NCBI GenBank assembly: GCA_005843805.1
Contig: SZXY01000024.1
Location: 1 to 56,440 of the forward strand
Direction: 5' to 3'
Length of the DNA: 56,440 nt
Source of the DNA: Chlorobium sp.
GTDB lineage: Bacteria > Bacteroidota > Chlorobiia > Chlorobiales > Chlorobiaceae
The notes beneath the pieces were generated by a model. The model was not told the origin of the DNA. It did not search any database and saw only the letters and a list, made by a program, of their open reading frames with translations. Within the stretch, counting starts at the first letter, position 1; every line of letters begins with the position of its first letter. Of the stretch, positions 24,412-46,021 are shown one piece after another. The translations under genes were made by a program, and so were the position numbers.

Positions 24412-24444
24412 GTTCAATGAGCTTTATTATGAGATGAACCAGGG

Positions 24445-26085
24445 CTAACTGTTTTCGTTCCTGTTTTCCTGAAGCTTTTCGATCTGGCCATCATGCATTT
24501 TGTACATGCTGTCTGCCAGGTGGAACCATCGATCATCATGCGTTACACATATAATGATCTTTCCACGTTTTTTGAGATCCGGCAAAATTTCTTCGTAAAA
24601 GATGCGGCGAAAGTGAGGATCCTGGTCTGCTGCCCATTCGTCAAGGACAATGATCGGTTTGTTCTCAAGTTCAGCGACGATAAGTGCGAGCCGTTTCCGC
24701 TGTCCAGAGGAGAGATCTATTGTACTGAAAGAGCCATCGCAAACCGTCACTTTGTCTTGCATGCCGAAACGTTCGAGCATTTCACCAATCCTCGCCGGAT
24801 TTGGTTCTTCAATTGATGTGAGGCGTCTTGAAAGATGGAAATCGGAAAAAATGGCCGAAAATCTGTTTCGATAGTCCTGCATCTGCTCAGTTTTGAGTTC
24901 TGTGCCATCAGCCAGGAGAGAGCCTGTGTCAAGTGGAATAAGGCCGGTGAGCAGTCGCAGCAAGGTCGATTTGCCGGAACCATTTCCCCCGGTGATGAAG
25001 GTGATCTGGCCGGCATGGAACTCAGCAGTTAGTGGACCGACTTTGAAGAGGGAGATTCCTTCCTTGTCACGGTAAGAGAGTTCGGCGTTTCTGAGGGCAA
25101 TTGACAAGGGTGATTTTTCCAGCGAACCCGTCTCCTCACTTGATACTGTTTTTGCAGCGGCAGCCAGCCGGTTTTTTATGTTGTCAATATTTTCAAGTGC
25201 CAGTTCGGCTTTTGTTACGAGGGGAGTGACAAAGGAAACCGTACTTACCGGTCCTGAGATAAAAAGTACAGCGATAGTGGCAGGAAGAACTACCTCGTGG
25301 AAGCCGGCAACGAAGAGCGGGACAACGAAAACCATCAAGCCAACCAGAGAAAACAACATTGCCTCGATGACGGCATAATTTCGGCCCCACTGCGCTTTGA
25401 GTAATGAGCTGGTTGTGCGTGATTCTTGAGATGCCTCCCCGAGGGTTGCTGTTACATCGTCCGCACGCGCTCCGCTCATTCTGATCTCTTTGAATCCGTG
25501 CAGGAGCTCGGTAAGGCCATCAAAAACCCTTTTTTCAGCGTCGGAAGCTGATTGCATCATTGTTCGCAGTGCCTTGACGCGAGAAAAACGTATCGCGACG
25601 GTTAACCCGGCAAGACCGAATGCGAGGATACATGCAAAAGGTGAAAGCCAGGCAAGGTAGGCTGCAAGGAAAAGCAGCATGACAGCCTGCTGAAACCCTA
25701 TGACGAGCATTGGCAGCACTTCGGCAAGAATTTGCGTATCCTGGGTAAGAGCACCCTGAAGGGTGGCGTGACCGATTTTTTCGATCGTGACCAGATCAGT
25801 TCGGCGGATCAGCTCGAACAGGCCAACACGCAGCTTGTGTATCAGTCGTTCGGTATCTTTCGAGGCCGTCACCAGCGTATAGATGTGTGTTACGTGATAG
25901 AGTGCCAGAGTGATGGCGAACATCAGCATAAGACGTCCGCTGATTTGGCCGCTTCCGCCCTCTTTTGAAGCTGTCGAAACCAGTGCGACGAGGGACATTG
26001 TTGCCACTGCTGACAAAATATTCATCAAGAGGAGTGATTTGAGATTTTCCGGAATTTCCCGCACAACGGCGTTAAATAGTCTCAT
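24445..26085 (-). CDS. Peptide-export ABC half-transporter, SyrD/PvdE type (copy 2)
   Basis: 546 residues, with about six hydrophobic segments in the first 300 residues followed by an ATPase domain. Walker A is GGNGSGKST, the signature region is DLSSGQRKRLAL, and Walker B reads IIVLDEWAADQDP. The DEWAADQDP form is characteristic of the cyclic-peptide/siderophore export family (SyrD, PvdE). In that family one polypeptide carries membrane and ATPase parts and works as a dimer in the inner membrane. The start overlaps the stop of the closely related gene upstream (ATGA), which suggests a heterodimer. It probably exports the cluster's peptide or an intermediate to the periplasm. Confidence 0.92.
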   Translation of the reverse strand: MRLFNAVVREIPENLKSLLLMNILSAVATMSLVALVSTASKEGGSGQISGRLMLMFAITLALYHVTHIYTLVTASKDTERLIHKLRVGLFELIRRTDLVTIEKIGHATLQGALTQDTQILAEVLPMLVIGFQQAVMLLFLAAYLAWLSPFACILAFGLAGLTVAIRFSRVKALRTMMQSASDAEKRVFDGLTELLHGFKEIRMSGARADDVTATLGEASQESRTTSSLLKAQWGRNYAVIEAMLFSLVGLMVFVVPLFVAGFHEVVLPATIAVLFISGPVSTVSFVTPLVTKAELALENIDNIKNRLAAAAKTVSSEETGSLEKSPLSIALRNAELSYRDKEGISLFKVGPLTAEFHAGQITFITGGNGSGKSTLLRLLTGLIPLDTGSLLADGTELKTEQMQDYRNRFSAIFSDFHLSRRLTSIEEPNPARIGEMLERFGMQDKVTVCDGSFSTIDLSSGQRKRLALIVAELENKPIIVLDEWAADQDPHFRRIFYEEILPDLKKRGKIIICVTHDDRWFHLADSMYKMHDGQIEKLQENRNENS

Positions 26086-27731
26086 TTTGTATCCTCCTTG
26101 TCTATATCGAGTTCTGTCAACTGACCTTCCTCAAGATGCAGACGACGGTCTGCACTATCAAAATAGCGGTCATCGTGCGTTACAGCGATAATGGTTATTT
26201 TTCGACGTTTTAGTTCCGGCAGGATTTCACGATAGAATTTATGCCTGAAGTATGCATCCTGGTCAGCGGCCCATTCGTCAAGGATCAGGATTGGTTTTTT
26301 TTCAAGGAGTGCCGCCACAAGAGCAAGACGCTTGCATTGACCCGTAGACAAGTCAGTGCGGGTAAATCTGTCGCCATTGATTCCGACCACACGCTCCATC
26401 TCCATCCAGTGCAGAAGATCTTCTGCGGTTACATTATCGACTTTCCCAAGTCCGTAAAGCTTTGAGAAAAGGTGAAAGTCAGAGAATACCGGTGCCATCA
26501 GGGAACGGTATCCTGAGAGGTTTGTTGGTGAGACAACCCTGTTGTCTTTCAACAGTTGGCCACGTTGGGGATGATAGAGACCGGTCAGCAGTTTGATGAA
26601 GCTTGATTTTCCCGAGCCGTTGCCACCGGTGATGAACAGGACTTCCCCTGGATGTATGGTGACGTTCAGCGGGCCGAGAGTGAAAGGAATCTCTCCTTCG
26701 GGGGCTGGATACGCAAATTCAATATCAGCCATCCGGATTTCGTTGAAGTTGGTTGAAGGTGGCTCGGCAGCTTCCGCACTGCTTTGCTCTTCAATGCTTG
26801 CCAGTTCGCTGTCAAGTGCCATCATACGGCCTGCTGCAGCTTTTGCCGCACGCAAAACGGTAAGGGATTGCATCAGTCCAAAAACAGGCGGAACCATGAA
26901 AAGTACCGCTGCTGATATCTTTACCAACTCACTCCTGATTGCAGGAGAATAAATCGGGACAACAAACACCACAAGTCCCAGCATCAGGTTGAACATCGTT
27001 TCACCAAAGACGAACTGTTGCCAGCTTTGGCGGTGCAGTTCGCTTCGTGTTGTGACCGTGTGGGTAGAGAGCTCATTAAACTCATCGCCAAGAGCCTGGC
27101 TCCGTTTGCTGTTGAGTCGCTGCTCCTTGAATCCGTCAAGGAGGTCGGAGACGCATTCAAAGAGTTTGGCTTCATCGGTGGATAACTCTTCCTGGCATTT
27201 CTCCAGCGAAAGACCAAGCTGGTAGTATGCATAAGAAGCGGCGACAAGCAGGATTGTCAAAAGCAGAAAGGCGACCAGCGAGATTGTGGCGATGTAGATG
27301 AGGATCATCGCGATCTGTATGACTGAACGTGTTGCCAGGGCAAGGTATTGGGAGTTGGATGAAACGATCTTGCAGCTCTGCGTGATGTTTCCGAACAGCC
27401 TGCTTTGGCCAAAGTGTTCGAGTTTCCAAAGATCGCCATGGCGAAGCCGATAGATCAATTTCATTCGCAGTTTGTCTATCGCTTTTTCAATATCAGACGC
27501 AAACTGCTCAACCAGACGGCTTTCATAGACAACGTAGATCAGCAGGCAGATTAAAAAGAGCCCGGCAACCGGTACATCGACAAATTCCTCTTTCGTATCA
27601 TTGATCTTTTGCGCAGCGATGGTAACAACTGCAAGTACAAGGGTGGTGCTTAATGCCGATGCTGACGCAAAGGCAAAAAGCTTGCGGAGTGGTTTGTCAC
27701 TGATCGATTGCAGGAGGCGAAGCAGATTCAC
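26082..27731 (-). CDS. Peptide-export ABC half-transporter, SyrD/PvdE type (copy 1)
   Basis: 549 residues with the same layout as the following gene: N-terminal membrane segments, then Walker A GGNGSGKSS, DLSTGQCKRLAL and Walker B ILILDEWAADQDA. The start codon is GTG (27729-27731) with a strong upstream AAGGAGAG, one of the few clear ribosome-binding sites in the cluster; it decides the start. It overlaps the next half-transporter by four bases. The two proteins are clearly related throughout, so this is an old tandem duplication whose products probably pair. Family members export lipopeptides and siderophore precursors. Confidence 0.92.
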   Translation of the reverse strand: MNLLRLLQSISDKPLRKLFAFASASALSTTLVLAVVTIAAQKINDTKEEFVDVPVAGLFLICLLIYVVYESRLVEQFASDIEKAIDKLRMKLIYRLRHGDLWKLEHFGQSRLFGNITQSCKIVSSNSQYLALATRSVIQIAMILIYIATISLVAFLLLTILLVAASYAYYQLGLSLEKCQEELSTDEAKLFECVSDLLDGFKEQRLNSKRSQALGDEFNELSTHTVTTRSELHRQSWQQFVFGETMFNLMLGLVVFVVPIYSPAIRSELVKISAAVLFMVPPVFGLMQSLTVLRAAKAAAGRMMALDSELASIEEQSSAEAAEPPSTNFNEIRMADIEFAYPAPEGEIPFTLGPLNVTIHPGEVLFITGGNGSGKSSFIKLLTGLYHPQRGQLLKDNRVVSPTNLSGYRSLMAPVFSDFHLFSKLYGLGKVDNVTAEDLLHWMEMERVVGINGDRFTRTDLSTGQCKRLALVAALLEKKPILILDEWAADQDAYFRHKFYREILPELKRRKITIIAVTHDDRYFDSADRRLHLEEGQLTELDIDKEDTK

Positions 27732-27785: not shown

Positions 27786-29051
27786 TCATGGGTTGAGATA
27801 ACTCGTTATTTTCTCCACATTTTTCTTGAAAGCTTCACACAACAGCCTGTGGCTCTCTTCTTTAAGGCAGCTTTCAACCCCGAATCCTGTTTTTCCTTCT
27901 CTGCTCAATCCGTTTATCTCCACAATATTGCCAAACCGGTTATCGGGGTTCATGCTCTCGCCACTTGACTCTCCCATGCGTATCTGCCAGAATTTCTCTT
28001 CTGTCCCGCCAACATGTTCAAGATAGTTAAAGAGAATTTCAGGCAACTGCTCATAGCCATGTATTGCTCCGTATCCTATGGCCTTGTGACGAACTCTGCT
28101 TTGGCTATTGCGGTTCCTCTCGATTGTATCGTCGATATCTTTGCCGACACTTAAACAGAGAGGGAAGAGTGTTGTGAACCATCCCACCGTTCGACTTATA
28201 TCTGTATGGTTGTCCAGCTTGTCCCGCCCATCTTTTTCGACGGTGATCCAGTTCTGCTTTTTGCCACTTACCTCATAAAGAGCATAACTCAAGCCGCTCA
28301 ACAGCACATCATTGATGTCGGTATTTCTTGCGCTTCTCTTTGTCTGAAATAACGTCCTGCTGATCTCTGCCGAAAAATCCACTCTGCTGTATCGTAACTC
28401 GCGGTCATCTTTTTCGGCAAGTTCCTGCCACTCATCTTGTTGATGTTCTTTGCGCTCTCTGTGCCATTCAAGCCAGTATTGGCGCTCTTCTGCGGTCGCG
28501 GTTTTTCCATATTCCTTCACAGCTTCAACCCATTGAGGGTAACTGCTGCAATTGTTTTCGACTTCCCTGCCTTCATAGAGCGCTTTCAGCTCTTCCCGGA
28601 TTATCGGCCAACTGGCGGCATCGAACACCAGATGGTGGAAAGCAAGATATATCCGTTCGCTCCCGTCTGCATATCCTCTCAAGATACCGCATTGCCAAAT
28701 ATAGCCTCTCTCGGTGTCAAACCCGCTTTGCCACTGTGTCAGTTCATGGAATATCTCGTCTTCTTTTTTTCCTCTGATATCCAGCTCCCTGATTTCCGCT
28801 ATTGGGCTCTCTTTGCGAATGTATTGTTTTCCGTCTCGATATACGGCCCTCAACATCGAATGCCGCCTGTTCAGCTTTTCAAGCGCTCTTTGTACTCTCT
28901 CTTTGTCCGTTTTTTCATTGACATAAATAAGAAAAGAGTGGTTAAAATGATTTGCTGCCGGCAATGTTTTTGCCATAAACCATTTTTGAATTGGCAGATA
29001 TCCAATGGGTTCCATTTCCATTTGCTTATCGAATACGGGCATGCTCTTCAT
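27786..29051 (-). CDS. Free-standing NRPS epimerization domain
   Basis: At 421 residues it is the size of one condensation-superfamily domain, with no A, T or other domain attached. The epimerization-type motifs are present in order: PIQKWF near residue 20, HHLVFDAASWPII (HHxxxDxxSW), RTVGWFT, IGYGAIHGY and LFNYLEHVG. E domains normally sit in cis behind a T domain and racemise the bound residue's alpha carbon. Here none of the NRPS proteins has an E domain, so this protein probably acts in trans on a carrier-bound peptide. The D-donor-type C domain at the end of the 1562-residue NRPS is a natural consumer. Spacers of 48 and 54 bases separate it from the neighbours; no SD is seen upstream. 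A trans-acting C-like role is the main alternative. Confidence 0.85.
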   Translation of the reverse strand: MKSMPVFDKQMEMEPIGYLPIQKWFMAKTLPAANHFNHSFLIYVNEKTDKERVQRALEKLNRRHSMLRAVYRDGKQYIRKESPIAEIRELDIRGKKEDEIFHELTQWQSGFDTERGYIWQCGILRGYADGSERIYLAFHHLVFDAASWPIIREELKALYEGREVENNCSSYPQWVEAVKEYGKTATAEERQYWLEWHRERKEHQQDEWQELAEKDDRELRYSRVDFSAEISRTLFQTKRSARNTDINDVLLSGLSYALYEVSGKKQNWITVEKDGRDKLDNHTDISRTVGWFTTLFPLCLSVGKDIDDTIERNRNSQSRVRHKAIGYGAIHGYEQLPEILFNYLEHVGGTEEKFWQIRMGESSGESMNPDNRFGNIVEINGLSREGKTGFGVESCLKEESHRLLCEAFKKNVEKITSYLNP

Positions 29052-29099
29052 AACAACGCTATCTTTTTATGGCGTACAGGAGGTTTGTTGTTTTTTTTC

Positions 29100-32000
29100 T
29101 CATGCGTTGAAGGTTGTCATTGCCCTCCTCAAAAGAGCCTTCACTCCTTTTGCTGGAATTGAGGGCCAGGTGATGCCGGATTTCTCAAGCAGCAGCCGGG
29201 TTCGATCTGAAGCAACCTCCATTCCATGTTGCCGGGAGAAGGGTGAGTGGCCTGTTTGAAGTCCATAATTTTCAACGGTTTCAGCAAGAGCAGATTCCAT
29301 CTCCGGCTCGTCGATTGCGCCAAGTAATCGTTCAAGAAAAGAGCTGAAGTTGCAGGTGCGGACTTTACCATCCAGCTCTCCGGCTGAAAGAATTATGTCG
29401 GCCAGCGACTCCCTGCGTGAGGTGTCAATATGGTGAATCTCATTGGAGAGCGTTTTTCTGCCAGCGAGTGCAATGATCGCTTTTGCAACAATGTCAACAT
29501 GGCAAAGCGATGCTGAAAGTTCAGTCGGCAGGCAGCCAAGGCGCAGAAACGCCGAAAGTTGGCGGAAAAAAGCGTTATCTGAAATGTTCCTTTGCAATTG
29601 TGTGCTGTCTGTTGCAAAGGCAATGTTACCTGCACGATGGATGCATGTGTTTGCCAACACTTCCCGTGATGAGATTACCAGCCGTTCTGCCTCCTGTTTT
29701 GTGCGGATATAGTAGTTGTCATCGGCAGTTTCAGGGGCGTAGTCATACTCTGTAAAGAGTCTGAAATCGCTTGACGATGCGCTGGCGAATACCGAAAGAG
29801 TAGAGACAAAATGAAAATCAGCCGTGACCGGTTTTTTTTGTGCAGCCAAATTCAGCAGGTGTCGTGTTGCGGCTACGTTGTCAGCAAAAAAATCACGGTA
29901 GAGCCCTATATGGTTTACATTGGCTGCGCAGTGAAAAATGGCATCCACACTGGCTGCAAGTTGGTCGTAATCGTGCCGTGGGAGAAGAAGTGTCTCGTCC
30001 CTCAGGTCACCTGCCAAAACATGCAGGCGCGGGTTGTCGCCTAACGCGCTGCCATGCTCACTTCCGAAGTAGCCTCTCAAAACCTCTCCAAGACGGCTGC
30101 GAGCAGTTTGGTTGTCGTTGCTGCGTACCAGCGTTGTTACCTTGATCGACCGGTCGGCAAGAAGCTCACGCAAAAGGTAACTGCCAAGATAGCCGGTTGC
30201 TCCGGTGAGCAGCACATGACGGTATGAGTTGCGCGATTCAATATCACGCTGGAGATCAGCCTGTATCCTTGTTTCATAAAGGGTGCGTTGCGGTCGCAGT
30301 GCATTGTCACGTTCGCTTGCACGAACTGCCTGCAGACTCCGGCCATCATCATATTCTTTTTGGGCACTCTTGATCATCAAGCGCAGGTGATCGGGACGTG
30401 GACGGCAAAGAAGGGCGAAGTCCGAAAGAACCGGATGTTCGTAAAGGTTGTTCACCTGACACTCGAACTCGCGGCGGAGTCGGTTTATCACAGCGATTGC
30501 CCTGAGGCTGTCGCCGCCAAGTTCAAAGAAATTATCCTCTCGTGCGGCATCAGCACCATTGAGCTGAGCCGACCATATTTCAGAGATCCGCTTTTCAATG
30601 CCGCTCTGCGGAGGAGTTCGCACTCTGTTGTTTCTGGCCTCCGGGATCTCTTTAATTCCACAATCTGCTGCTCGGTTCATCATGTCGAGCAGTGCACGGC
30701 GATCCACTTTGCCCGCCGCCGTAAGCGGTATTTCGGAGACACTGAAAAAGGATGACGGAATCATATAGGAGGGCAGTGATTCTCTCAGGAAGGCTGACCA
30801 CTCGGCCTGGGTTGGAGTCGCATGAACGGCATCAAGTTTGACGAAAGAGCGGAGTGCTTGTGTCTGGTCTTCCAGTGTTTCTATGAGGGCTACAGCCTGC
30901 ACTACACCCGGAAAGGTTGCAAGGCGATGTTCGATCTCGCCAAGCTCAACCCTCTGTCCGCGCAATTTGACCTGTGTGTCTCGACGGCCAAGGATTTGTA
31001 ATTCACCTGTCCGGAGCCAACGTCCCAGATCGCCGGTTCTGTAGAGTCGTTCACCCCCCGAATCCACGAAAGCTGCAGCGGTGAGATCTGGACGATTGAG
31101 GTAACCTGCAGCAAGTCCGATGCCTCCAAGCAGCAGTTCGCCGATAACTCCAGGAGGGAGAGGATTCAAGCACTCATCCATAATGTAGACACTCATGTTG
31201 GAGAGAGGCCTTCCTGCCGTGATGAGCTCCGTGTCGGGAAAAATACGGCCAAGTGTTGTTGCGGCAGAATTTTCGGTTGGGCCATAGCCATTGAAGTAAG
31301 CGAGCTTCGAGGCATAGTGGCGTGCGTCATCCGCAATGGGCGATTCTCCGACGGTCATCAGAATCTTCAGGCCAGGGAAATCAGCTCGCCCGAAAAGCCG
31401 CAGATAGGATGGTGACATAGTCGCAATAGTGACTCCGAGTCGCTCGATCAGCGCTTGTATGCCGGAAATGTCATTCATCTGCTGGCGCCTTACTGGAACC
31501 AAACATGCACCCCTTGCCCATGTTATCACAAGATCGCTGATCCATAGATCGAACGATGGTGATGCAATCTGCATGGTACGGTCATCTTTGCTGATGCCAA
31601 AAATTCGGCTCTCGTCCATAGCGAGATTGAGCATGCCTTTGTGGCGCAGTGCAACCCCTTTTGGAACGCCGGTTGAACCCGATGTGTAGATAATATAGGC
31701 GGTTTCGTCGGGAGTGATTGTTATGTCGAGAGCGGGTGGATCAACTGCACCGGCAGCAATCTCTTCGGGTCGAAGAGAGGTAAAGTGATCACTCTTGAGT
31801 TCAGGTGGAAGAGAGAGAGAGTCCAGCACAATGATCAAACGTAACCCGGCATCCCTGGCCATGAAGGCAAGTCGTTCTGCGGGAAGATCGGCAGTCAGGG
31901 GCAGATAGCATGCCGCAGCCTTCCAGATTGCAAGGACAGTTTCTGGAAGCGCGGCTGACTGTTCTGTGAAAACCCCGACTGTTTCGCCGCGCCTGACACC

Positions 32001-35000
32001 AAGGTTGATGAGTGCCCTTGCAAGGGCATCTGCGCGACTGTTGATTTCCTCGAAGCTCACTACCCCGTCGTCAGTGACTATTGCCGCTCGTTCAGGGTAA
32101 GCCGAGACTATCTGCTGAAACAGCTCAGGGAAAGAAGTTGCAGGCAAAGAACGGATCGGGCCATTCTGCCACTTGTCAAGCAGTTCTCTTTCCTCTGGCA
32201 GCAGTTTCGGAAGCTGCATATCGTTTTTGTAAGAGTTCTCCCCGAGGAATCGCATCCAGCCAACAAGCGAATCAAACCATGTAAGGGCGCTCTCTTTCAG
32301 GTAAATTGCGGCATTGGCGTACCATGTCAGGACAAGGGAACCATCGCTCTCTGACTCATGTACCAGTACCAGGTCTTGTGCAGGAGCATTGCGCCGCAGT
32401 TCGTAGCTGGTTACTCCAGCCTCATGAACTGTCGTGGCACTGAAACAGGGATCTCTTTCAGGAGTGACCCTGAACGCAGGGTTTTCGGTGACCGCAATGT
32501 CAAAAAGCGGATAACGGGCAGGGTGCGTTGCAAGTCGATGTTTCTCTCGAAAGTTACCATAGATGCGCACAAAAGGGAAGCGGGAATGCTGCAGTGCTTC
32601 TGCCAGATGTTGTTGCATTGCTTGTACCAATTCATCGAAAGAGCCTGATTGAGGAATATGGCAGGCAAGAGGAAGCATGTTTATAAAGTAGCCGATTATT
32701 TGTGCTTCGGCTGCCGACTGGCGGGTTGAGCTTGCTGTGCCCATCAGAAATTCAGAACGTCCTGTGCGGCGCCGTACTTCGTGTCCGAGAACGGCAAGCA
32801 TGAGTGCATGGAGAGTAGAGTTGTTTCGCCTTGCAAGTTTTCGAAGTGCATTTGCCGTTACAGCGTCAATCCGTGTTTGTAAACAATGGCTTCCCGGGCA
32901 AGAGGTTGCCGAACGAGCATTGGTGCGTGGTATGTCAAGAGGCCATTCGTCGAGAGAATCTGGTGCTCGCTCAATCAGGTTTTCGATGACCTTTTGCCAG
33001 TAGTCGGCATCTGAACTGGCGGTTTGGCTCTCAAGATATGCCGCTTCGTTAGCTGCTGCCCGGTCAAATCCTGCTGGTGGGGGAGGCAGCCTTTCGCCTT
33101 TCATCAGTGCAGAAAGCTCATCGATGAGGATACCAAGCGAAAGACCATCCCCAATGGCATGATGCATGACAAACCAGAAAATTGTTTGATGGCTCTCTGT
33201 AACTTCCGTCAGACCGGCACGCCAGAGAGGCGGCATGGCCATGGAAAAAGGTTCTGTCTGGCGATTGCCAATATGCAGATACGCTTCATTGCTCGATGCT
33301 GCAACATGCAGCTCAAGGGTTTTATCGATTTTTTCAGTGACAACACGTCTGAGAATACCGGCCTCGTTTTCGAGGAAAGCTGTGCGCAGAGCCTCGTGTC
33401 GTGAAATCAGTTCGTTCCATATTGTTTCCCATCGTTCGATGGCAATCGCATTGCCATGCACGACAAGCTTCAGTGGAATATTGAAACCGCTTGTGTCGAG
33501 TCCCGCCTGCTGGGCTGTCCAGAACTCACACTGTCCAGGCGTTGCCAGATCGGTTGAGATATCGGGGGCTGGCCTGGAAGGTCGGGCAAGACGAACTCTT
33601 TCGGTAAAACCCGCAAGTGTTGGTTCAGCGAACAGTTCGCGGGCTGGCACTTCAAAGCCGAGCGATTTTTCGAGCTGGTGGACGACTGCGATTGCAAGCA
33701 GGCTGTGTCCTCCGAGCGCAAAGAAGTTGTCCTCCAGATGGATATGATTTCGTCCGAGTACTGATGCCCAGATTTCAGCAACGCAACATTCCAGTTCATC
33801 CCTGGGTGAAGTGGAGCCTGATGGCAGAGTCTGCTCTCGGAGCAAGGCATGCAGTGCGGTTCGGTCAACCTTGCCTGCAGCCGTCAATGGAATCGATTGC
33901 AGCGCAATCACACCGGAAGGAATCATGTGCGAAGGAAGTCGCTCTCCGAGGAAGGCTTTCCATTCATCCATCTCCGGCATCTGGTGTCCAATCGACATCA
34001 GGACAAAGGCCCATAGACTTTTTATTCCTTCATCCTGCTCCAGGAGCACAACCACAGCCTGCGAGAATGCCGGATGGCTTGCAAGTGCATACTCGATCTC
34101 GCCGGGTTCAATGCGGATTCCGTTCAGCTTTACCTGATTGTCTTTACGTCCGATGATCTCGATTGTTCCATCCTGGTGCCAGCGGCCAAGATCGCCGGTG
34201 CGGTAGCGACGTCCCGATGGTGTGACGATGAAACTTGCCTCAGTCAGTTCTGGCTGGTTCAGATAGCCCTGACAGATACCTGCTCCACCAAGCCAGATCT
34301 CTGCGGCAACTCCTGGAGCAACCGCATCTCCTTTATCATTGCAGATATGAACGCTGGTATTGGGTAGAGGTCTGCCAGCCGAGATATAAAGCCCTTCGTC
34401 ACCTGTAATGCGCCCCATTGTACTGGTGATAGTGTTCTCCGTAGGGCCATAGGCATTGAAATAGCTGAGTGTCGAACCATATTTTTTTACATCAGCCGCC
34501 AGCGGCGCCTCTCCACCGGTGACCAGAATCCGCAGGGAAGAAGGAAGTGCAGCCCCTTCGAAGAGTCCAAGGTAGGTTGGCGTGATATCTGCCACTGAAA
34601 TGTGCAGCCTGTCGAGGAATTCAATAAAACGGTTTGGTGACTCAATGATGTTGTAAGGAACCGGGCAGATCGCGGCTCCGCAGACGAGAGGCAGTCCAAT
34701 ATCGGAGAGAGAGACATCGAATGAGGGTGAGGCGAACATCAGGCAACGATCGATGGCTTTCAGACGGAACATGCCGGCAGCACCGAGTACCATGTTCACG
34801 AAACTGTCGTGACCGATTATAGTGCCCTTGGGTTTGCCAGTCGATCCGGATGTATAAATAATGTAAGCCGCATCATCATACTGGCTGAAAGAGAGAGGTT
34901 TTTTTGAGTGTCGCTGACAAAACGATTCGGATAACTCCTCCGGGCGGAGGGGTTCCGGTAATCCTTCCGCCAGAAGATCAGGCATGGTAATGCCGTCGAG

Positions 35001-38000
35001 AGCAATAAGGTGCGAGATTCCGGCGTCGTGAGCCATAAAGGAAAGACGTTCGGAAGGCTGGTCTGAGGCAAGAGGCAGGTAGGTGGCACCCGCTTTCCAG
35101 ATACCAAGCAGTGTGGCAGGGATGTTCAGGGAGCGGGCGGTCAGAACACCGACAATGCTTCCGCGTTTGACCCCTTGCTGTACAAGGCTGTGGGCGATGG
35201 CGTTGGCTTTCTCATCGAGAGCTCGATAGGAAATGCTCTTTTCGAGGGTGATTATGGCAGGACGACCATCTTGTCCTGGCTGCTGAACCATCATTTCGAA
35301 CAGTTCGTCGAAGCGCAATCGAGGTCGCTCGATGCTCTCTCCCTGTTCCCGGATAGCCAGAAGTATTTCTTCTTCCGGCAACAACGGTGGAAGGGGTTGT
35401 GTTGCATGTTTCGGATTTTCGGCGAGCCAATTTGCCCATCCTCTCAGAGATTCCATCAGGATTCTTGCACTCTCTTCGGTGTAGATTGCCGCGTTGACAT
35501 GCAATTGCAGAAGAAGTCCGCCTTCTTCCAGATTTTCATGAATGAGGACCATATCCTGCCCCGGAGAGGCATCAGTCCGTTCATAGCTTATGGTGCCGGG
35601 AAGCTTTGCTGCTCTTGCCACCGTAAAACGACGGGGCAGGCTTCCGGTTCGGCTGCCGGGGTTTTCGGTTACTGCAATGTCAAAGAGAGGGTAGCGCTGG
35701 GGATGGCGTCTGTCGGGGTACTCCTTCCAGAATGCACTGTAAATGCGGGAAAATGGCAAACGTGCATGTTGCAGGGCTTCAGCGAGAGTTTGCTGCGTTG
35801 AACGCAAGAGGTTCCGGAAGCACTCCTGTAAATCCGGACGAAGGTGCAGCGGCAGCATGTTTACGCCGTAACCGATAATGTGCGAGTCAGATGTTGACTC
35901 CCTGACGGATGCTGTCGTGCCGATCATGATGTCAGAACGACTGCTACGGCGAGCGCTTTCCATTGCAAGGAGCGTCACTATCAGCGAGTGAAGAGTAGAC
36001 TCGCAAGTTCGAGCAAGAGTTCTCAGGGCTTCTGCTCTCTGTGGGTCGATAAGAACCTCAAGACGATGGTTTCCTGATGGAGTTCTCGATGAACGCATCA
36101 TATCAAGGGGCCACTCCTCAAATGCTTTGGAAGGTACTTTTTTCAGGAGATCACTCCAGTATTGTGAGTCATCTATGGAGTCTGATGAGGCAAAGTATAA
36201 CTCTTCGCGGGCGGCAAACACCTTTGCTCCAGGCGAGGCCGAGGAAAGCTTTCCTTCGTCAAGTACTACTGTCAACTCGTCAAGGAGTGTGCCGACTGAT
36301 TGTCCATCACCAACGGCATGGTGAAGGGCAAGCCAGAAAAATTGAGAGTTCTCATCACGCGCTTCAACGATACCGGCACGCCAGAGTGGGGCAACTTTCA
36401 TTGACAGTGGAGCAAGCTGGCGCTGGCGGATGAGAGTCAGTGCGTCAGAGGCAGAGGAGGTAACGCTGAATTCCAGAATGACATCGATTTTCGAGGTGAC
36501 CCGTCGTTTCAACTGCCCGGTTTCATCACTTTCAAAAAACGTTCGTAATCCATCGTGTCGGTTTACCAGCGTTGACCAGGCGCTCTGCAAGCGCTCCGGG
36601 GAAAGGTTTCCAGTGACGATCTGGTTAACAGGAATGGTGAAGGTACGGGTATCGAGCCCTGCCGATTCAGCAATCCAGAACTCTTTTTCGCCTTCAGTGG
36701 CAAGATCAGTTTCGGGCAGCTTCTCATTGTGTTCCTGAAGAGCAGATTGCCTGGCAATTATTTCAACAAACCCCGCAAGAGAAGGGGCAGCAAAGAGTGC
36801 ACGTGCTGACACCTGAAGCCCGAGACTCTCCTTCACGCGGTGCGCCACACTTACCGCCAGCAGGCTGTTGCCGCCAAGAGCAAAGAAATTGTCGTTGCGG
36901 GCCACAGGAAGTTTGAGCAGATCAGACCAGATGGCAGCGATACGCTTTTCAAGCGGATCTTGAGGCATCTCTTGAACAACGCTCCTGTGCTGCTGTCTGG
37001 CATGGTTGAGAAGCGCTTGCCGATCAATCTTTCCTGCAGGGGTAAGCGGGATAACGGCAACCGGTATGATCGTCGAAGGGATCATGTGTGCGGAAAGATG
37101 TTCGGCAAGAAATGCTGTCAGTGAAACCTCGGAGAGTGCAGCCTGGTTGTTTGGTTGAACAAACGCCTTGAGAACCTTGACGTTTATCTCTGACTCCTCG
37201 ACAAGAACGACAGCATTGGCGACTTCAGGGTGTCGGCAGAGTATCTGTTCTATTTCACCAAGCTCAACCCGTTGGCCGTTCAGCTTGATCTGTTGGTCGA
37301 TACGGCCACTGATCACTATCTGGCCCTCTGTATTCCAGTGTCCAAAGTCTCCTGTTCGATAGAAGAGCGTTTCTGGTGTGGCCACAAAGTGCATGGCACT
37401 CAGTTTGGGCTGGTTGATATAACCATGTGCAATTCCGATACCTCCGAGCCAAAGCTCACCCTTGGCACCGGGTGGTACCAGGGAGCCGTCTTCACGTCGA
37501 ATCGAAATTCGTACATTTGGCAGTGGTCGTCCAACCGAGAGCGGCATATCCGGATCATGATCGCTCAGGATATGTTCTCCTGAAACCACGATTGTTGCTT
37601 CAGTTGGGCCATAAAAATTCCAGAATGCGCACCGGTCGGCATAATGGCGCAGGTCATTATAGTTCGGTGCTTCTCCACCAGTCAGCAGGATGCGCAATCC
37701 CTCAAAAGGAAGCTGTTCGCTGACACGCAGGTAGGAGGGAGCATGAAAAGCAATGGTGACACCGAGTTCACGATAGTATGGTTTCAGCAGCCAGGGATCG
37801 TCACGAAGGCTCTGCGATACAGGCACAAGGGCAATCCCACTCAGTAATCCGTGTCCAAGTTCCCAGAGAGATGCGTCGAAGCTGGCAGTGGAGACCAGCG
37901 CTATACGGTCATCAGGGCGAAGGCCAATTCTCTCTGTCACTCCGAGAATGGTATTGATATATGCAGCATGGGTGACGGGAACCCCTTTTGGCGTTCCCGT

Positions 38001-41000
38001 CGTGCCAGAGGTGTATATTATATAGGCAATGTCATCGGGAGAGGCCTGCGTGTTTAAACGGCGCAGAGAAGGAGTAAACTCCCCGGTATGGATAATGGTT
38101 TGTACCGATTCTTCCAGAGCAGGCGGGATGGTAAGTCCGTCAAGGACGATGAGTATGGATGCACCTGCGTCGCTGGTCATTCTCGCCAGTCGTGCTCCTG
38201 GCAGTTCATAAGCAAGTGGCAGGTAGGTTGCGCCTGTTTTCCATATTCCCAGTATAGTTGCCGGAAGATCGGGTGAGCCGGCAGTGAGCACGGCAACTGT
38301 GCTTCCTCGAACTGCACCACGCTCTGAAAGTCCCTGTGCGATTCCATTGGCCAGGGTATCGAGTTGTGCACAAGTTGTGATGCGATCGCGGCAAACGACA
38401 GCCTCTTTATTCGGATGCTTCTCACTCAACGCTTCGAAGAGTTTGTGGCAGCACTGGTCTGGACGAGGCTGCTTTGCACCCTGTTCCCAGAGTTCCAAAA
38501 GAGTGATTTCGTGGGGGAGCAATGCCGGAACCGGACAGAAAACGCGGTCGGGATCCTCGGCAAACCATCGTGCCCATGCAGCAAATGAGGAGAGCCATGC
38601 CCTGGCACACTCTTTGGTGCATACATCAGGGTTCCATGTCAGAAGGAGATTCAGTACTCCACCGTTTTCAGGGGATAGCTCATGGCTGAACGAAAGATCA
38701 AGACCTGCAGCCGTGTGTTCGAGCTCTCCCGGCAATGAGTAAGGCGCCAGGGTGAGAGCCGCTTCCTGGTCTATGCTGATTCTTGGCGGTATTGCTGTCA
38801 GTGCGATATCAAAAAGCGAGGTGCGTGAACCTGCCCGACAATCGGGATGACGTTGGCGGAACTCCCTGTAGAGCAGGCCGGCTGGATAGGAGCCATGTTC
38901 AACCGTTTCGGTAAGAGCGTTCTGGGTGCTTCGAAGAAGATCAGGAAAGGTCAGCTCTTTTTCTTGCGGAAGGATTACGGGAAGCACATTGACAAAGTGC
39001 CCGACAGTGCTATCGTCTCCTGCGGGGCGGATGGTTATGCCGCTGCCAACCATGATGTCACGGTGACCGCTCCGTCGCCTTATCTCTATGGCGAGGATGG
39101 TGAGCAAAAGTGCGTGCAGTCCGATTGCATGCATTTTTGCAATGCGGCCAAGTGCAGTAAGCGTGATGGTATCGAGTTGTTCGGCAAGGGGTTCTGCACC
39201 TCGTCCACCGGGTACTGCTGGTCGCGGGAGTTCGGTGACGCACTCATTGAAGGCGTCGCTTTCACTGAGAGCAAGATCATCGAGCCTGCTTAACCAGAAC
39301 TCCCTGTCGCGAGTGGCTTTTGCAGAAGCAAAGTATTGTTGTTCTGCAAAGCTTGCCAGGGCGATACCGTTTGGTACCGGCGGCAAGGGACGCAGGGCAA
39401 GCAATGCAAGCAAATCCTCCTGGATCAAACGGGCTGATGAACCATCTGCCACGCAGTGGTGGAGGACAAACCAAAAAAGTGTTTCGTTTTCCTCATCGAT
39501 CGTTATCAAGCCAGCTCTTGCAAGGGGGGGGACAGTAAGCTGGAATCTTTCGTTTGCCCATCGTTCCACTATGTTGCGGGCATCCTCCATCGAGAGGCAG
39601 TGATCAATTCGGATCAATGCAGATGACGGGAGTTCGTGGGATGCTACAGTCCTCCAGCAGAGAGTGCGTTTTTCGTCCAGATACAACGCCGTGCGCAGGG
39701 CGGCATGACGATCAAGCAGGCCAGTCCAGGCCGATTTCCATGCAGCAGGAGATGGTATCCGACCTCTGACTTGCAGAACCCGAACAATGTGGGAGGCAGC
39801 CGGAGCCAAACCAATTTCCGAAGCAATCCAGAAATCCTCCTGGTCAGTCGTTGCAATATTCTCAAGTGAGGTTTCATTGGTAATGTCTGGCGCTTGATGC
39901 TGCATAGCCTCGATATGTGATGCCAGCGCCTTTACGGTCAGCGTTGTGAGTACTGTCTGCACCGGGACGCTGTATCCAAGCCTTTGAAGGCGCTGACTTA
40001 CGGCAATTGCCAGAAGACTCGTTCCCCCTACCGCAAAGAAATTGTTTTCCCTCTGGATCGGTCGTATATCAAGGAGATCCTCCCATATCCCGGCAATTGT
40101 CACTTCCAGTTCGCTCTGCGGAGCTGTTCCGCCATCTCGTTGCCGATCTTCTTTGAAGAGGGATTCGACGCTCTTGAGAAGGGCGTTTTGATCGATTTTT
40201 CCGGCAGAATTGATGGGTATTTTAGCCAGTACGGCAATCTCGGCAGGAATCATCCAGGAAGGCAGTTTCCTTTGGAGAAACTCCCTCCAGTCAACAGCTT
40301 CTCGCTGGTCTGGATTTTTGCACTCCACACACGCCACAAGCCGGCCATTGAGTTGCAAGACCTTCGCTTGTCCCACTGCAGGGTGGCTTTGCAGTGCAAG
40401 CTCAATTTCGCTGGACGAGACTGATTGCCCGGAAATTTTGATGACATTGTCTTCCCGACCGAGTGTCTCAAGTTCTCCGTTTGAGTTCCATCGAGCCAGG
40501 TCGTGCGAACGAAACGCTCGTCCGTAAGGTGTTTCGACAAAATACTCGGCTGTCAGTTGAGGTTGTTTCAGATATCCGGGTGAAACGCCGATACCGATGA
40601 CATGGAGTTCGCCGACCTCGCCTTTCGGGACTTCATTGCCCTCTGCGTCGAGCAGGTGGACTGATGTATTGGCAAACGGTCGGCCACTCGGGATCAACCC
40701 CTTTTCTTCAGGATTGACATGATGCATGCAAATCGTGCCGCAGACTTCGGTAGCTCCGTGTATATTCCAATAGTCGAGATATCGTGCGTAATGCCTTGCT
40801 TCATCATCATTTGGTCGTTCGCCGGCAGTAATGATACAGCGAAGTCCCTTTGGCACGGTTCTGTTGAGCAGATGCAGATATGATGGAGTAAACATTGCAA
40901 TCGAAACGAGATGTCGCTCCATAAATTCGAGAAGGAGAGTCGGGTTGTCGATTGTTGAACGCGATACGGGTACGAAAGAGGCTCCACTCATGAAAGGAAG

Positions 41001-41654
41001 GCATAGCTCACGAAAGCCAAGGATAAAGCCTGGTGAGGCAGAAAGTAAAAGACGATCCTCACAGGATATGTTGTGTGCGGCAATATGACCGAGTGCCATA
41101 TTCACACAACCCTGATGCTGGATCATAACACCCTTGGGTATTCCGGTAGAACCGGAGGTAAAGAGAATAGCTGCCAGATCACTCATCTCGGATGTTTGCG
41201 GGCAGACCGGGGAGGTTTCCTGCCAATCTTCCGGTAATAACTCAGGCCGGATAAGTGTTTGAGAGAGAGTCACAGAACCATTGCCTGTCACCTGCTCGAT
41301 GAGCTCAGGGGGAGGTTCAATGCCATCGAGCACAATTAAAAGACGAATATCTGCTTGCCTGGCAATGTTTGCCAGACGTTCTGCGGGCAGGTCGGTGACC
41401 ATTGGAACATAGACACCACCAGCCTTCAGAATTCCCATGAAGGCAGCCGGCAATCCTGCTGATCGCTCAGTAAGCACTCCAACCGCTTCCTGGGCTTTAA
41501 TTCCCAGGCGACGGAGTTCCATGCCAACCTTTTCTGCAGCAGCGTCCAGTTCGCCGTAGGTGAGGAGAAAATCATCGGTAATAAGCGCTGGGGCCGATGG
41601 TTGCTTGAGCGCCAATCTCTTGAAGCTGTCGTGTATTTTTTGGTAATGATGCAT
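29100..41654 (-). CDS. Giant NRPS, A-T-C-A-T-C-A-T-C-A-T-reductase (4184 aa)
   Basis: Approximate residues: A1 (1-500), T1 (~546), C1 (HHCVADG ~732), A2 (TSGTTG ~1216), T2 (~1596), C2 (HHAVGDG ~1776), A3 (~2272), T3 (~2650), C3 (HHAIGDG ~2830), A4 (~3328), T4 (~3717, LGGDSL) and a terminal NAD(P)H reductase domain (GATGYLG ~3820, YxxxK in YYIRTKQ). It starts directly with an A domain, so it is an initiating synthetase, and would release its acyl-tripeptide as an aldehyde or alcohol. In A1 the A4 motif reads GFILGFREL, so the aspartate that binds the alpha-amine is missing; A1 probably activates a carboxylic acid without that amine. A2 reads D-A-W-F-L-G-F-I-V-K (Leu-like); A3 and A4 match no code I know. 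The three C domains lack the usual first motif and share EFWxA openings. It begins 6 bases after the radical SAM gene. Confidence 0.94.
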   Translation of the reverse strand: MHHYQKIHDSFKRLALKQPSAPALITDDFLLTYGELDAAAEKVGMELRRLGIKAQEAVGVLTERSAGLPAAFMGILKAGGVYVPMVTDLPAERLANIARQADIRLLIVLDGIEPPPELIEQVTGNGSVTLSQTLIRPELLPEDWQETSPVCPQTSEMSDLAAILFTSGSTGIPKGVMIQHQGCVNMALGHIAAHNISCEDRLLLSASPGFILGFRELCLPFMSGASFVPVSRSTIDNPTLLLEFMERHLVSIAMFTPSYLHLLNRTVPKGLRCIITAGERPNDDEARHYARYLDYWNIHGATEVCGTICMHHVNPEEKGLIPSGRPFANTSVHLLDAEGNEVPKGEVGELHVIGIGVSPGYLKQPQLTAEYFVETPYGRAFRSHDLARWNSNGELETLGREDNVIKISGQSVSSSEIELALQSHPAVGQAKVLQLNGRLVACVECKNPDQREAVDWREFLQRKLPSWMIPAEIAVLAKIPINSAGKIDQNALLKSVESLFKEDRQRDGGTAPQSELEVTIAGIWEDLLDIRPIQRENNFFAVGGTSLLAIAVSQRLQRLGYSVPVQTVLTTLTVKALASHIEAMQHQAPDITNETSLENIATTDQEDFWIASEIGLAPAASHIVRVLQVRGRIPSPAAWKSAWTGLLDRHAALRTALYLDEKRTLCWRTVASHELPSSALIRIDHCLSMEDARNIVERWANERFQLTVPPLARAGLITIDEENETLFWFVLHHCVADGSSARLIQEDLLALLALRPLPPVPNGIALASFAEQQYFASAKATRDREFWLSRLDDLALSESDAFNECVTELPRPAVPGGRGAEPLAEQLDTITLTALGRIAKMHAIGLHALLLTILAIEIRRRSGHRDIMVGSGITIRPAGDDSTVGHFVNVLPVILPQEKELTFPDLLRSTQNALTETVEHGSYPAGLLYREFRQRHPDCRAGSRTSLFDIALTAIPPRISIDQEAALTLAPYSLPGELEHTAAGLDLSFSHELSPENGGVLNLLLTWNPDVCTKECARAWLSSFAAWARWFAEDPDRVFCPVPALLPHEITLLELWEQGAKQPRPDQCCHKLFEALSEKHPNKEAVVCRDRITTCAQLDTLANGIAQGLSERGAVRGSTVAVLTAGSPDLPATILGIWKTGATYLPLAYELPGARLARMTSDAGASILIVLDGLTIPPALEESVQTIIHTGEFTPSLRRLNTQASPDDIAYIIYTSGTTGTPKGVPVTHAAYINTILGVTERIGLRPDDRIALVSTASFDASLWELGHGLLSGIALVPVSQSLRDDPWLLKPYYRELGVTIAFHAPSYLRVSEQLPFEGLRILLTGGEAPNYNDLRHYADRCAFWNFYGPTEATIVVSGEHILSDHDPDMPLSVGRPLPNVRISIRREDGSLVPPGAKGELWLGGIGIAHGYINQPKLSAMHFVATPETLFYRTGDFGHWNTEGQIVISGRIDQQIKLNGQRVELGEIEQILCRHPEVANAVVLVEESEINVKVLKAFVQPNNQAALSEVSLTAFLAEHLSAHMIPSTIIPVAVIPLTPAGKIDRQALLNHARQQHRSVVQEMPQDPLEKRIAAIWSDLLKLPVARNDNFFALGGNSLLAVSVAHRVKESLGLQVSARALFAAPSLAGFVEIIARQSALQEHNEKLPETDLATEGEKEFWIAESAGLDTRTFTIPVNQIVTGNLSPERLQSAWSTLVNRHDGLRTFFESDETGQLKRRVTSKIDVILEFSVTSSASDALTLIRQRQLAPLSMKVAPLWRAGIVEARDENSQFFWLALHHAVGDGQSVGTLLDELTVVLDEGKLSSASPGAKVFAAREELYFASSDSIDDSQYWSDLLKKVPSKAFEEWPLDMMRSSRTPSGNHRLEVLIDPQRAEALRTLARTCESTLHSLIVTLLAMESARRSSRSDIMIGTTASVRESTSDSHIIGYGVNMLPLHLRPDLQECFRNLLRSTQQTLAEALQHARLPFSRIYSAFWKEYPDRRHPQRYPLFDIAVTENPGSRTGSLPRRFTVARAAKLPGTISYERTDASPGQDMVLIHENLEEGGLLLQLHVNAAIYTEESARILMESLRGWANWLAENPKHATQPLPPLLPEEEILLAIREQGESIERPRLRFDELFEMMVQQPGQDGRPAIITLEKSISYRALDEKANAIAHSLVQQGVKRGSIVGVLTARSLNIPATLLGIWKAGATYLPLASDQPSERLSFMAHDAGISHLIALDGITMPDLLAEGLPEPLRPEELSESFCQRHSKKPLSFSQYDDAAYIIYTSGSTGKPKGTIIGHDSFVNMVLGAAGMFRLKAIDRCLMFASPSFDVSLSDIGLPLVCGAAICPVPYNIIESPNRFIEFLDRLHISVADITPTYLGLFEGAALPSSLRILVTGGEAPLAADVKKYGSTLSYFNAYGPTENTITSTMGRITGDEGLYISAGRPLPNTSVHICNDKGDAVAPGVAAEIWLGGAGICQGYLNQPELTEASFIVTPSGRRYRTGDLGRWHQDGTIEIIGRKDNQVKLNGIRIEPGEIEYALASHPAFSQAVVVLLEQDEGIKSLWAFVLMSIGHQMPEMDEWKAFLGERLPSHMIPSGVIALQSIPLTAAGKVDRTALHALLREQTLPSGSTSPRDELECCVAEIWASVLGRNHIHLEDNFFALGGHSLLAIAVVHQLEKSLGFEVPARELFAEPTLAGFTERVRLARPSRPAPDISTDLATPGQCEFWTAQQAGLDTSGFNIPLKLVVHGNAIAIERWETIWNELISRHEALRTAFLENEAGILRRVVTEKIDKTLELHVAASSNEAYLHIGNRQTEPFSMAMPPLWRAGLTEVTESHQTIFWFVMHHAIGDGLSLGILIDELSALMKGERLPPPPAGFDRAAANEAAYLESQTASSDADYWQKVIENLIERAPDSLDEWPLDIPRTNARSATSCPGSHCLQTRIDAVTANALRKLARRNNSTLHALMLAVLGHEVRRRTGRSEFLMGTASSTRQSAAEAQIIGYFINMLPLACHIPQSGSFDELVQAMQQHLAEALQHSRFPFVRIYGNFREKHRLATHPARYPLFDIAVTENPAFRVTPERDPCFSATTVHEAGVTSYELRRNAPAQDLVLVHESESDGSLVLTWYANAAIYLKESALTWFDSLVGWMRFLGENSYKNDMQLPKLLPEERELLDKWQNGPIRSLPATSFPELFQQIVSAYPERAAIVTDDGVVSFEEINSRADALARALINLGVRRGETVGVFTEQSAALPETVLAIWKAAACYLPLTADLPAERLAFMARDAGLRLIIVLDSLSLPPELKSDHFTSLRPEEIAAGAVDPPALDITITPDETAYIIYTSGSTGVPKGVALRHKGMLNLAMDESRIFGISKDDRTMQIASPSFDLWISDLVITWARGACLVPVRRQQMNDISGIQALIERLGVTIATMSPSYLRLFGRADFPGLKILMTVGESPIADDARHYASKLAYFNGYGPTENSAATTLGRIFPDTELITAGRPLSNMSVYIMDECLNPLPPGVIGELLLGGIGLAAGYLNRPDLTAAAFVDSGGERLYRTGDLGRWLRTGELQILGRRDTQVKLRGQRVELGEIEHRLATFPGVVQAVALIETLEDQTQALRSFVKLDAVHATPTQAEWSAFLRESLPSYMIPSSFFSVSEIPLTAAGKVDRRALLDMMNRAADCGIKEIPEARNNRVRTPPQSGIEKRISEIWSAQLNGADAAREDNFFELGGDSLRAIAVINRLRREFECQVNNLYEHPVLSDFALLCRPRPDHLRLMIKSAQKEYDDGRSLQAVRASERDNALRPQRTLYETRIQADLQRDIESRNSYRHVLLTGATGYLGSYLLRELLADRSIKVTTLVRSNDNQTARSRLGEVLRGYFGSEHGSALGDNPRLHVLAGDLRDETLLLPRHDYDQLAASVDAIFHCAANVNHIGLYRDFFADNVAATRHLLNLAAQKKPVTADFHFVSTLSVFASASSSDFRLFTEYDYAPETADDNYYIRTKQEAERLVISSREVLANTCIHRAGNIAFATDSTQLQRNISDNAFFRQLSAFLRLGCLPTELSASLCHVDIVAKAIIALAGRKTLSNEIHHIDTSRRESLADIILSAGELDGKVRTCNFSSFLERLLGAIDEPEMESALAETVENYGLQTGHSPFSRQHGMEVASDRTRLLLEKSGITWPSIPAKGVKALLRRAMTTFNA

Positions 41655-41660
41655 GCAGCC

Positions 41661-42989
41661 TCAAATAGAGCCATTGTTGTCAGGGAATAATCTGGTCTGG
41701 TAACCCAGGCAGCGATAGCCGTTTGCGGCGGATACTTTGTCAATGCTGCGTACCCATTCGGCGTTAGCGCCCAGCTCATGCTTTACCCAGTTGCATAGAC
41801 TGATGGTTATTCCATGTTGCTCGGCAGCATGCTGAATTTTCTTGAGGTACTCAACACAGACGGAGCGTTCAGGCGCTATTCTTGAGCGTTGTTTGATATG
41901 GTTCTGATTTTCATCCGACAAGTATGGCCTAAAAAACTCCTTGACGAGCTTGGGGTCAAAATAATTGATGTAATTGGCAAGGATAACCAGATTTCGTATT
42001 TCTGTGGTCAGGAATTCAGGTTTGATGTTGCGGACTCCGGCTGACACGAGAAGCGCAAAGTATTTGTCGATGTTCTCATCGGTCAGATAGGGAAGCATCA
42101 GTGGCTGACACAACACTGACTCGGCATATATACCGAGTTCCCGGCATTTAACCAGTGTATCCAGCCTTTCCTCAATGGATGCAGCATTTGGTTCGAGCAC
42201 ATCACGAAGATACTTCGGCATGATGCCGATACTTCCGTTCAGTTGGATTTTTGAAGCGATGAGACTCATCAACGAAAAAAGAGAGTCGCCCTTATGGGTG
42301 ATATCGAGGTGCCTTGGGCCACCTTTTGTTGCAATGAAGATACGAATTGCGGAATCCGGGTGCCGGTCAAAATGACGTACAAAGGTGCGAATGATCTCAT
42401 GCGCTATGCCATTGAAAAGGTGTGGCTCCGAGAATGCTTCGGTTTTGGGTGAAAAGTAGTAGAATATGGATCTATTCCGATTTCGCTCAAGGGAGTTTGC
42501 CAGTCGCTCAGCATAGTTAGTATAGACTGTAATTGGTTTTACGTGATTGCCGTCGGTTACCAGACAGTACTGGCATGCCACTGCACACGATCCCGAAGAG
42601 GGAGATACTTCAAGAACGTTGGTTGGACAAAGTCCAGTATAGTTATGAATCTCCAGCTCCTCATTGCTCTCTGTCAGGCTTTCCTGATAATGATTGCCAG
42701 GAGTGAGATTATTGTTTTTATAGAGTTGGCCAAACCATTCTGAACCTCTCAGAAGCTCGGAGGTAACGTTTTGGCTGATTGTGTAGTCACGACCTGGTTC
42801 GTTGAGTACGGTGTTTTCAATGTCCAAAGGGGCAAATCCCTTTAGATCAGGACAGGCCGGTTTTTGTGAAATATACCGGAACTGGATGTCTGAAGGAGTT
42901 GCAGCCTTACATTCCTGACACTGAGTATGAGTGATATGGTTTGATTCCTGGGGCATAAATGAGGGGTTCAATCGTTTTTTATATCCCAT
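41661..42989 (-). CDS. Radical SAM protein heading the NRPS cluster
   Basis: 442 residues. The 4Fe-4S motif is CAVACQYC (CxxxCxxC, near residue 135), within SPSSGSCAVACQYCLV. The surrounding layout (SIFYYFSPKTEAF, RIFIATKGGPRHL) recalls the spore-photoproduct-lyase-like branch of radical SAM enzymes. Additional cysteines lie at the N terminus (CQEC) and near the C terminus (SLCNW, RCLGY) and could bind a second metal site. The reaction cannot be told from sequence. Its position as first gene, 6 bases before the giant NRPS, points to making or modifying a building block or to tailoring the peptide. The start ATG has no clear SD; M13 is an alternative. An AT-rich divergent promoter region lies upstream. 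Confidence 0.85.
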   Translation of the reverse strand: MGYKKRLNPSFMPQESNHITHTQCQECKAATPSDIQFRYISQKPACPDLKGFAPLDIENTVLNEPGRDYTISQNVTSELLRGSEWFGQLYKNNNLTPGNHYQESLTESNEELEIHNYTGLCPTNVLEVSPSSGSCAVACQYCLVTDGNHVKPITVYTNYAERLANSLERNRNRSIFYYFSPKTEAFSEPHLFNGIAHEIIRTFVRHFDRHPDSAIRIFIATKGGPRHLDITHKGDSLFSLMSLIASKIQLNGSIGIMPKYLRDVLEPNAASIEERLDTLVKCRELGIYAESVLCQPLMLPYLTDENIDKYFALLVSAGVRNIKPEFLTTEIRNLVILANYINYFDPKLVKEFFRPYLSDENQNHIKQRSRIAPERSVCVEYLKKIQHAAEQHGITISLCNWVKHELGANAEWVRSIDKVSAANGYRCLGYQTRLFPDNNGSI

Positions 42990-44215: not shown

Positions 44216-44220
44216 ACTAT

Positions 44221-45369: not shown

Positions 45370-45484
45370 GAGAATGTTATGTTTTTTTACTGCTTCTTTG
45401 AATAGGGTTTATTTTGCTATCTTTGTTTTTATTGGTAATAAGTGAAATCAACTTTAACCTGCCATTTAAGAAAGGAGATTACTT

Positions 45485-46021
45485 ATGAAAGACCAGACAG
45501 TTGAAGCTACGGCGGAAGTGGTATCCGAGAGCGTTAATGACACCCTTGATCGCGACAAGCGTGTTGAAAGACATGCAAGAAATCACATTTTGACAGCAAT
45601 GGGGGTAGGACTTTTCCCGCTTCCGTTAATTGATATGGTAGCCTTGGTTGGTGTCCAGCTCGATATGATCAGGACGCTTGCAGGTGAGTATTCTATTCCA
45701 TTCAGAAAGGATATCGGCAAATCTGTCATCACGACCTTGCTGGGTGGTTTCATTCCTGTTGCCCTGGGAGGCTCACTTGCCAGTTTGATAAAATGTATTC
45801 CTTTAATTGGTCAGACTACGGGTGCCGTTACCATGCCGGTTATTTCCGGAGCCTCTACTTATGCTATTTACAAGGTATTTATACAGCATTTCGAGTCAGG
45901 CGGAACCTTTCTCGATCTCGATCCAGCCAAGGTTAAGTCCTATTTTGCCGAACAGTTCACAAAAGGCAAACAGGTGGCTGCGGATATAAAAGCAGAAGGA
46001 AGTGCTGGTTCATCAAACTGA
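45485..46021 (+). CDS. DUF697/YcjF-like membrane protein
   Basis: 178 residues with a perfect AAAGGAG SD upstream. A charged N terminus (about 1-35) precedes HARNHILTAMGVGLFPLPLIDMVAL and glycine-rich hydrophobic stretches (VITTLLGGFIPVALGGSLASLI; GAVTMPVISGASTYAIYKVF). The pattern matches the DUF697 family, often linked to GTPases in other genomes; none is adjacent here. The function is unknown, and it is probably an inner-membrane protein. A terminator follows directly. Confidence 0.75.
   Translation: MKDQTVEATAEVVSESVNDTLDRDKRVERHARNHILTAMGVGLFPLPLIDMVALVGVQLDMIRTLAGEYSIPFRKDIGKSVITTLLGGFIPVALGGSLASLIKCIPLIGQTTGAVTMPVISGASTYAIYKVFIQHFESGGTFLDLDPAKVKSYFAEQFTKGKQVAADIKAEGSAGSSN

Follow-up and report, generated by a model that had tools for sequence, protein, structure and literature searches.

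Epimerization (E) domains nearly always form part of peptide synthetases (NRPSs), where they are paired with D-specific condensation (C) domains, so the stereochemistry of an assembly line is hard to change. The DNA analyzed here, positions 1 to 56,440 of a Chlorobium sp. contig (SZXY01000024.1; hereafter, the window), raises the question of what an apparent E domain is doing in a gene of its own, and which synthetase and which carrier (T) domain it would serve. We found no described stand-alone or trans-acting E domain in the open-licence papers searched. The genes and domains concerned are as follows.

24445..26085, minus strand: second ABC transporter, cyclic-peptide-export type
26082..27731, minus strand: ABC transporter of the cyclic-peptide-export type, 54 bp after the stop codon of the E gene
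27786..29051, minus strand: stand-alone E domain gene, 421 aa, with H140, D144, E272, R276, N342 and Y343
29100..41654, minus strand: NRPS4, a four-module, reductase-terminated synthetase of 4184 aa (A1-T1-C1-A2-T2-C2-A3-T3-C3-A4-T4-R)
29103..30407, minus strand: terminal thioester reductase (R) domain region of NRPS4, Rossmann and YxxxK motifs intact
30414..30587, minus strand: carrier domain T4 of NRPS4 (DNFFELGGDSL), the proposed target of the E protein
41661..42989, minus strand: radical SAM protein with a CxxxCxxC motif, encoded by the operon's first gene
43349..46021, plus strand: divergent genes for Band 7, periplasmic binding and DUF697 proteins, which travel with NRPS4

The E reading frame starts with an ATG at 29051, and its product is a complete single E domain, to which neither a docking, T or A domain nor any other is joined. 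The earlier note had found the E-domain motif set in this protein and nothing else, and both observations hold: the sole Pfam match is Condensation (PF00668, 6.7e-48), and the motifs PIQKWF, HHLVFDAASW (of the form HHxxxDxxSW), RTVGWFTTLFP, IGYG and FNYL are all present. These motifs are kept in orthologs at 54–63% identity, and dN/dS values of 0.10–0.30 among the orthologs indicate purifying selection; together, motif conservation and selection place the gene beyond chance. A 241-aa open frame lies antisense to it (28437-29162, plus strand), and its status as a gene is unsupported. Base composition shifts across 28001-29000 (GC skew −0.158, AT skew −0.236), with GC content down to 0.46 over the E gene, and the flanking synthetase genes differ in this respect.

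By sequence, the best matches to the E protein among solved structures are the epimerization domains of BacC, GrsA, PvdL and TycA. Its remaining matches in its own genome are the C domains of the adjoining synthetases (23–26% identity), and the E domains of Salmonella plasmid NRPSs share 33% identity with it. No phage match was found, and a search of 395 Bacteroidota genomes and of another 395 from the phylum to which genome G395 belongs (E<=1e-20) returned no stand-alone E protein beyond this family. Within the window, only 27786-29051 among the C-superfamily stretches carries the E4, E5 and E7 motifs, which bears out the earlier statement that none of the synthetases has an E domain in cis.

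To place the protein within the superfamily, we built a phylogeny of 172 C-superfamily domains taken from the window and its relatives, from NRPSs of Bacteroidota, and from annotated NRPSs on plasmids (among them those of bacillomycin, Paenibacillus and Nostoc), in which domains were labeled by position: those after a T and before a C domain as E, and those after an E domain as D-accepting. All stand-alone proteins nest inside the E clade with support of 100/100, and a tree with the stand-alone proteins outside that clade is rejected (AU p=0.0009). The other full-length C-superfamily domains of the window fall outside the E clade. The nearest E relatives in the tree are the domains found in cis in a giant NRPS from Bacteroidota (G292:C344), a Flavobacteriaceae synthetase (L035, 33% identical to the window protein), a Vibrio synthetase (L081) and a Photobacterium synthetase (L082). 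Unlike the window protein, all four are embedded after a T domain, and the C domain that follows E in G292, L035 and L082 is of the D-accepting type. Structure prediction points the same way. The AlphaFold model of the E protein built with a deeper alignment has a pLDDT of 83.9 (an earlier model from nine close orthologs only had a pLDDT of 54), and a fold search of the PDB with the E model returned E-domain-containing chains as its top 13 matches (TMq 0.77–0.84), with C domains ranking after them. Membership of the predicted protein in the E-domain family is strongly supported by these trees and models, and the placement within C domains that the earlier note had named as its refutation did not occur.

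Free-standing C enzymes do exist, as in VibH (PMC5577590) and SgcC5 (PMC10212144), each of which resembles the window protein in being a single C-superfamily domain, encoded by its own gene and acting in trans. These enzymes make bonds, whereas the window protein belongs to the E clade and has E4, E5 and E7 motifs that are specific to E domains; with the C side rejected by the AU test as well, we give hardly any credence to a free-standing condensation enzyme here, and a C-domain or VibH-like placement is ruled out by the tree and that test. A different stand-alone C-superfamily protein of 421 aa, encoded beside NRPS genes in another Bacteroidota genome (G277:C16, about 106500-107800; L074), groups with condensation domains and not with E.

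A member of the E family need not be an active one, and we therefore considered the residues on which catalysis depends. The list of residues mutated in GrsA, which reportedly goes back to Stachelhaus and Walsh in 2000, comprises H753, D757, E892, R896, N975 and Y976. Their equivalents in the window protein are H140, D144, E272, R276, N342 and Y343 (numbering checked by spacing in a sequence alignment with GrsA), and all six are invariant in 10 of 10 stand-alone E proteins. One motif departs from the canonical form. The E4 motif, canonically EGHGRE, reads EKDGRD in the window protein and E[KRN]xGR across the stand-alone family, in which K, R or N and then P, H, Q or D stand in place of the GH that 29 of 30 cis E domains have after the catalytic Glu; the catalytic Glu and Arg are kept. 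Because this replacement is family-wide, catalysis may differ from that of known E domains. We predict that the window protein is a catalytically competent epimerization domain, and hold this, jointly with the assignment to T4 made below, with somewhat better than even confidence.

The altered E4 motif would also suit an E fold that does not epimerize: a relic, a domain that recruits partners as the X domain does in glycopeptide NRPSs, or an enzyme of other carrier-bound chemistry, perhaps together with the radical SAM protein. Repeated loss of the E gene (see below) fits such a role, and no Chlorobium E gene occurs without the radical SAM gene, which is present in 9/9 E-positive Chlorobium genomes, in both genomes with E remnants and in 0/4 of the other NRPS4 genomes (Fisher p=0.011, uncorrected for kinship). 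Against it, the residues known to matter in the E domain of GrsA, whose loss would mark an X domain or an inactive E-like domain, are all retained, and selection on the gene is purifying. We regard a non-epimerizing role as improbable. The radical SAM protein (41661-42989) has no close named family, and it may act on the same product as the E protein. Its gene also occurs in G081, a 77% complete genome in which NRPS4 was not found, and a radical SAM gene lies between E and the transporters in L032, a metagenome-assembled genome (MAG) labelled Geobacter.

If the protein epimerizes, it very likely does so in trans, judging from gene architecture. A canonical cis E domain belongs to a T-E-C or T-E-TE unit and has a T domain upstream in the same protein, and the window gene and all of its orthologs are single-domain ORFs, which leaves trans as the only mode. 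This mode is supported by strict co-location with a single synthetase. Ten orthologs were found, every one stand-alone, in 9 of 86 Chlorobiaceae genomes and in the MAG labelled Geobacter (55% identical), and E lies directly after NRPS4 in 10/10 loci. The NRPS4 stop codon is 48 bp before the E start in the window, and the two genes overlap by 4 bp in three orthologous loci. Downstream come two ABC transporters, immediately after E in the Chlorobium loci and past several unrelated genes in L032. Related loci with a named source come from Chlorobium ferrooxidans DSM 13031 and from Chlorobium MAGs of lakes. In almost every Chlorobium copy of NRPS4 with flanking sequence, the Band 7, periplasmic binding and DUF697 genes are divergent from it; a role in self-protection or export is possible for them, and the start at 44107 in this group is probably 38 codons too early. 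The evidence supports NRPS4 as the partner synthetase of the E protein. The trans-acting epimerase proposed in the earlier note thus stands as a free-standing E domain by phylogeny, residues and fold, with co-location supporting the trans mode, and its list of candidate T domains can be shortened.

A second NRPS/PKS block in the window (752-24417) likewise has no cis E domain and could in principle be what the E protein serves instead of NRPS4. The two do not travel together: E occurs without this block in G070, G072 and G033, the block occurs without E in G066 and G074, and E adjoins NRPS4 in every case. The presence pattern rules the block out as an obligate partner, and that it is the true client is very improbable. 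Several features of this block are unusual in themselves. The genes at 15695-24417 (minus strand) have an odd module split, in which the product of 19225-24417 ends in an A domain with no T, and that of 15695-19228 has an A domain into which a methyltransferase is inserted, followed by T and TE, without a C domain. Two adjoining proteins encoded at 752-6759 (minus strand) meet as T-C | C-A-T-C, and the last C domain (854-2161) has no T after it and groups, on a long branch, with D-accepting C domains. Where the block is missing, other convergent NRPS genes lie downstream of the NRPS4-E-ABC genes (G072:C122 from 24762; G070:C46 from 102532).

Which of the four carriers of NRPS4 would be the substrate? 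Carriers that precede an E domain read GGDSI in 31 of 32 references, and carriers that precede a C domain have GGD in 3 of 38. In the NRPS4 copies where each is present, T1 reads GGTSL, T2 GGNSL, T3 GGHSL and T4 GGDSL, so that only T4 has the GGDS motif; the carrier before the reductase in unrelated NRPSs has GGD in 0 of 11 cases. E-less relatives of NRPS4, and the Azospirillum synthetases, also keep GGDSL at T4, and since it persists there the motif does not track the presence of E, which weakens it as proof of E pairing. Profile scoring of T domains (26/29 and 33/34 correct in leave-one-genome-out controls) places T2 and T3 firmly among carriers before C domains, and gives intermediate scores of −0.4 to +8.8 for T4, mildly of the E type, and −1.5 to +7.9 for T1, where true carriers before E average +22. 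The candidates thereby narrow to T4 and then T1, with T2 and T3 looking like ordinary carriers before C.

An active E protein could instead serve NRPS4 at an earlier carrier, T1 or, less probably, T2 or T3, in which case a D donor would pass to the next C domain. T1 is weakly E-like by profile score too, and the NRPS4 C domains are divergent: they fall outside the D-accepting (DCL) clade in the best tree, and their grouping with it is not rejected (AU p=0.25), so they are not proven L-acceptors. A1, however, lacks Asp235 when the A-domain codes are read with a PheA-like scaffold, and the first unit on T1 is therefore probably no alpha-amino acid; T2 and T3 score as C-type; and NRPS4 remains intact, with the same C motifs and A codes, where E has been lost, which would be hard to explain if a downstream C domain demanded a D residue. 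We consider an earlier carrier unlikely. On T4, no downstream C domain has to accept a D residue, which would make loss of E tolerable for the line. This tolerance and the carrier evidence make epimerization on T4 before reductive release the simplest reading. The E protein would dock to T4 once the last condensation is complete and flip the alpha-carbon of the final residue in the peptidyl thioester, whereupon the R domain would release the chain reductively with a C-terminal residue that is D or an L/D mixture. That T4 is the target and that the C-terminal residue is D are both likely on the sequence evidence, and for this course of events as a whole we consider the balance modestly favorable.

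The history of the gene is one of repeated loss. NRPS4 was found in 15 genomes, 6 of which are without E, and the distribution of E on the NRPS4 tree needs five changes, which we interpret as a single gain and four losses; in its resolved parts, the E tree matches the NRPS4 tree. Two genomes retain remnants of E at the expected place: the last 25 codons in G074 (89% DNA identity over 76 bp to G051), and, next to inserted DNA in G037, a short piece that is degraded and has an in-frame stop. In G068, G063 and G066, NRPS4 is followed by the transporters with no E between them, and in G066 the gap has 19 bp that match the E gene, a mere hint of a further remnant. The NRPS4 of E-negative genomes is full length, except in G042, where a contig end cuts it, and the histidine motifs of its C domains, its R-domain motifs and its A-domain codes are unchanged.

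A related line occurs in another phylum, on two Azospirillum plasmids.

L146 6721-23628: NRPS4-type synthetase
L147 6691-23628: NRPS4-type synthetase

Each is a four-module, reductase-terminated NRPS, 53–54% identical to NRPS4 from end to end, and as in Chlorobium the cluster includes two ABC transporters after the NRPS as well as DUF697 and prohibitin (Band 7 type) genes. Neither plasmid has a match to E; the gene slot that E holds in Chlorobium is occupied by a TauD-type dioxygenase. The cross-phylum cluster is of the peptide-aldehyde/alcohol type, and this reductase-terminated peptide family, common to photoferrotrophic Chlorobium and Azospirillum, is apparently uncharacterized. Repeated loss with NRPS4 intact, together with the dioxygenase in the Azospirillum slot, indicates that E behaves as an optional tailoring gene. 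It is quite possible, and we propose it tentatively, that the separate E gene is an evolutionary stereochemical switch by which Chlorobium lineages toggle the handedness of the last residue on the same reductase-terminated line, with the slot filled otherwise in other phyla. If so, these genomes offer a natural comparison between the epimerizing and non-epimerizing forms of one assembly line, and a small E domain from its own gene becomes a possible plug-in part for NRPS engineering.

Compared with known cis E domains (GrsA-E, TycA-E, TycB3-E, PvdL-E2, BacC-E), the window protein shares their fold, the HHxxxD motif, the catalytic Glu and Arg, RTVGWFT, GYG, FNYL and their clade. It differs from E domains of the GrsA type in being encoded on its own, lacking a T domain, an A domain and a COM region, and in the replacement of GH by K, R or N and a variable residue. 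Epimerization at the end of a line has a precedent in the penicillin ACV synthetase, where E precedes TE and no condensation follows epimerization in the last module (PMC10212144), as proposed here. The two systems part in how these steps are arranged: the ACV synthetase has its E domain in cis and releases its product hydrolytically through TE, whereas the Chlorobium line would pair an E domain in trans with reductive release by R.
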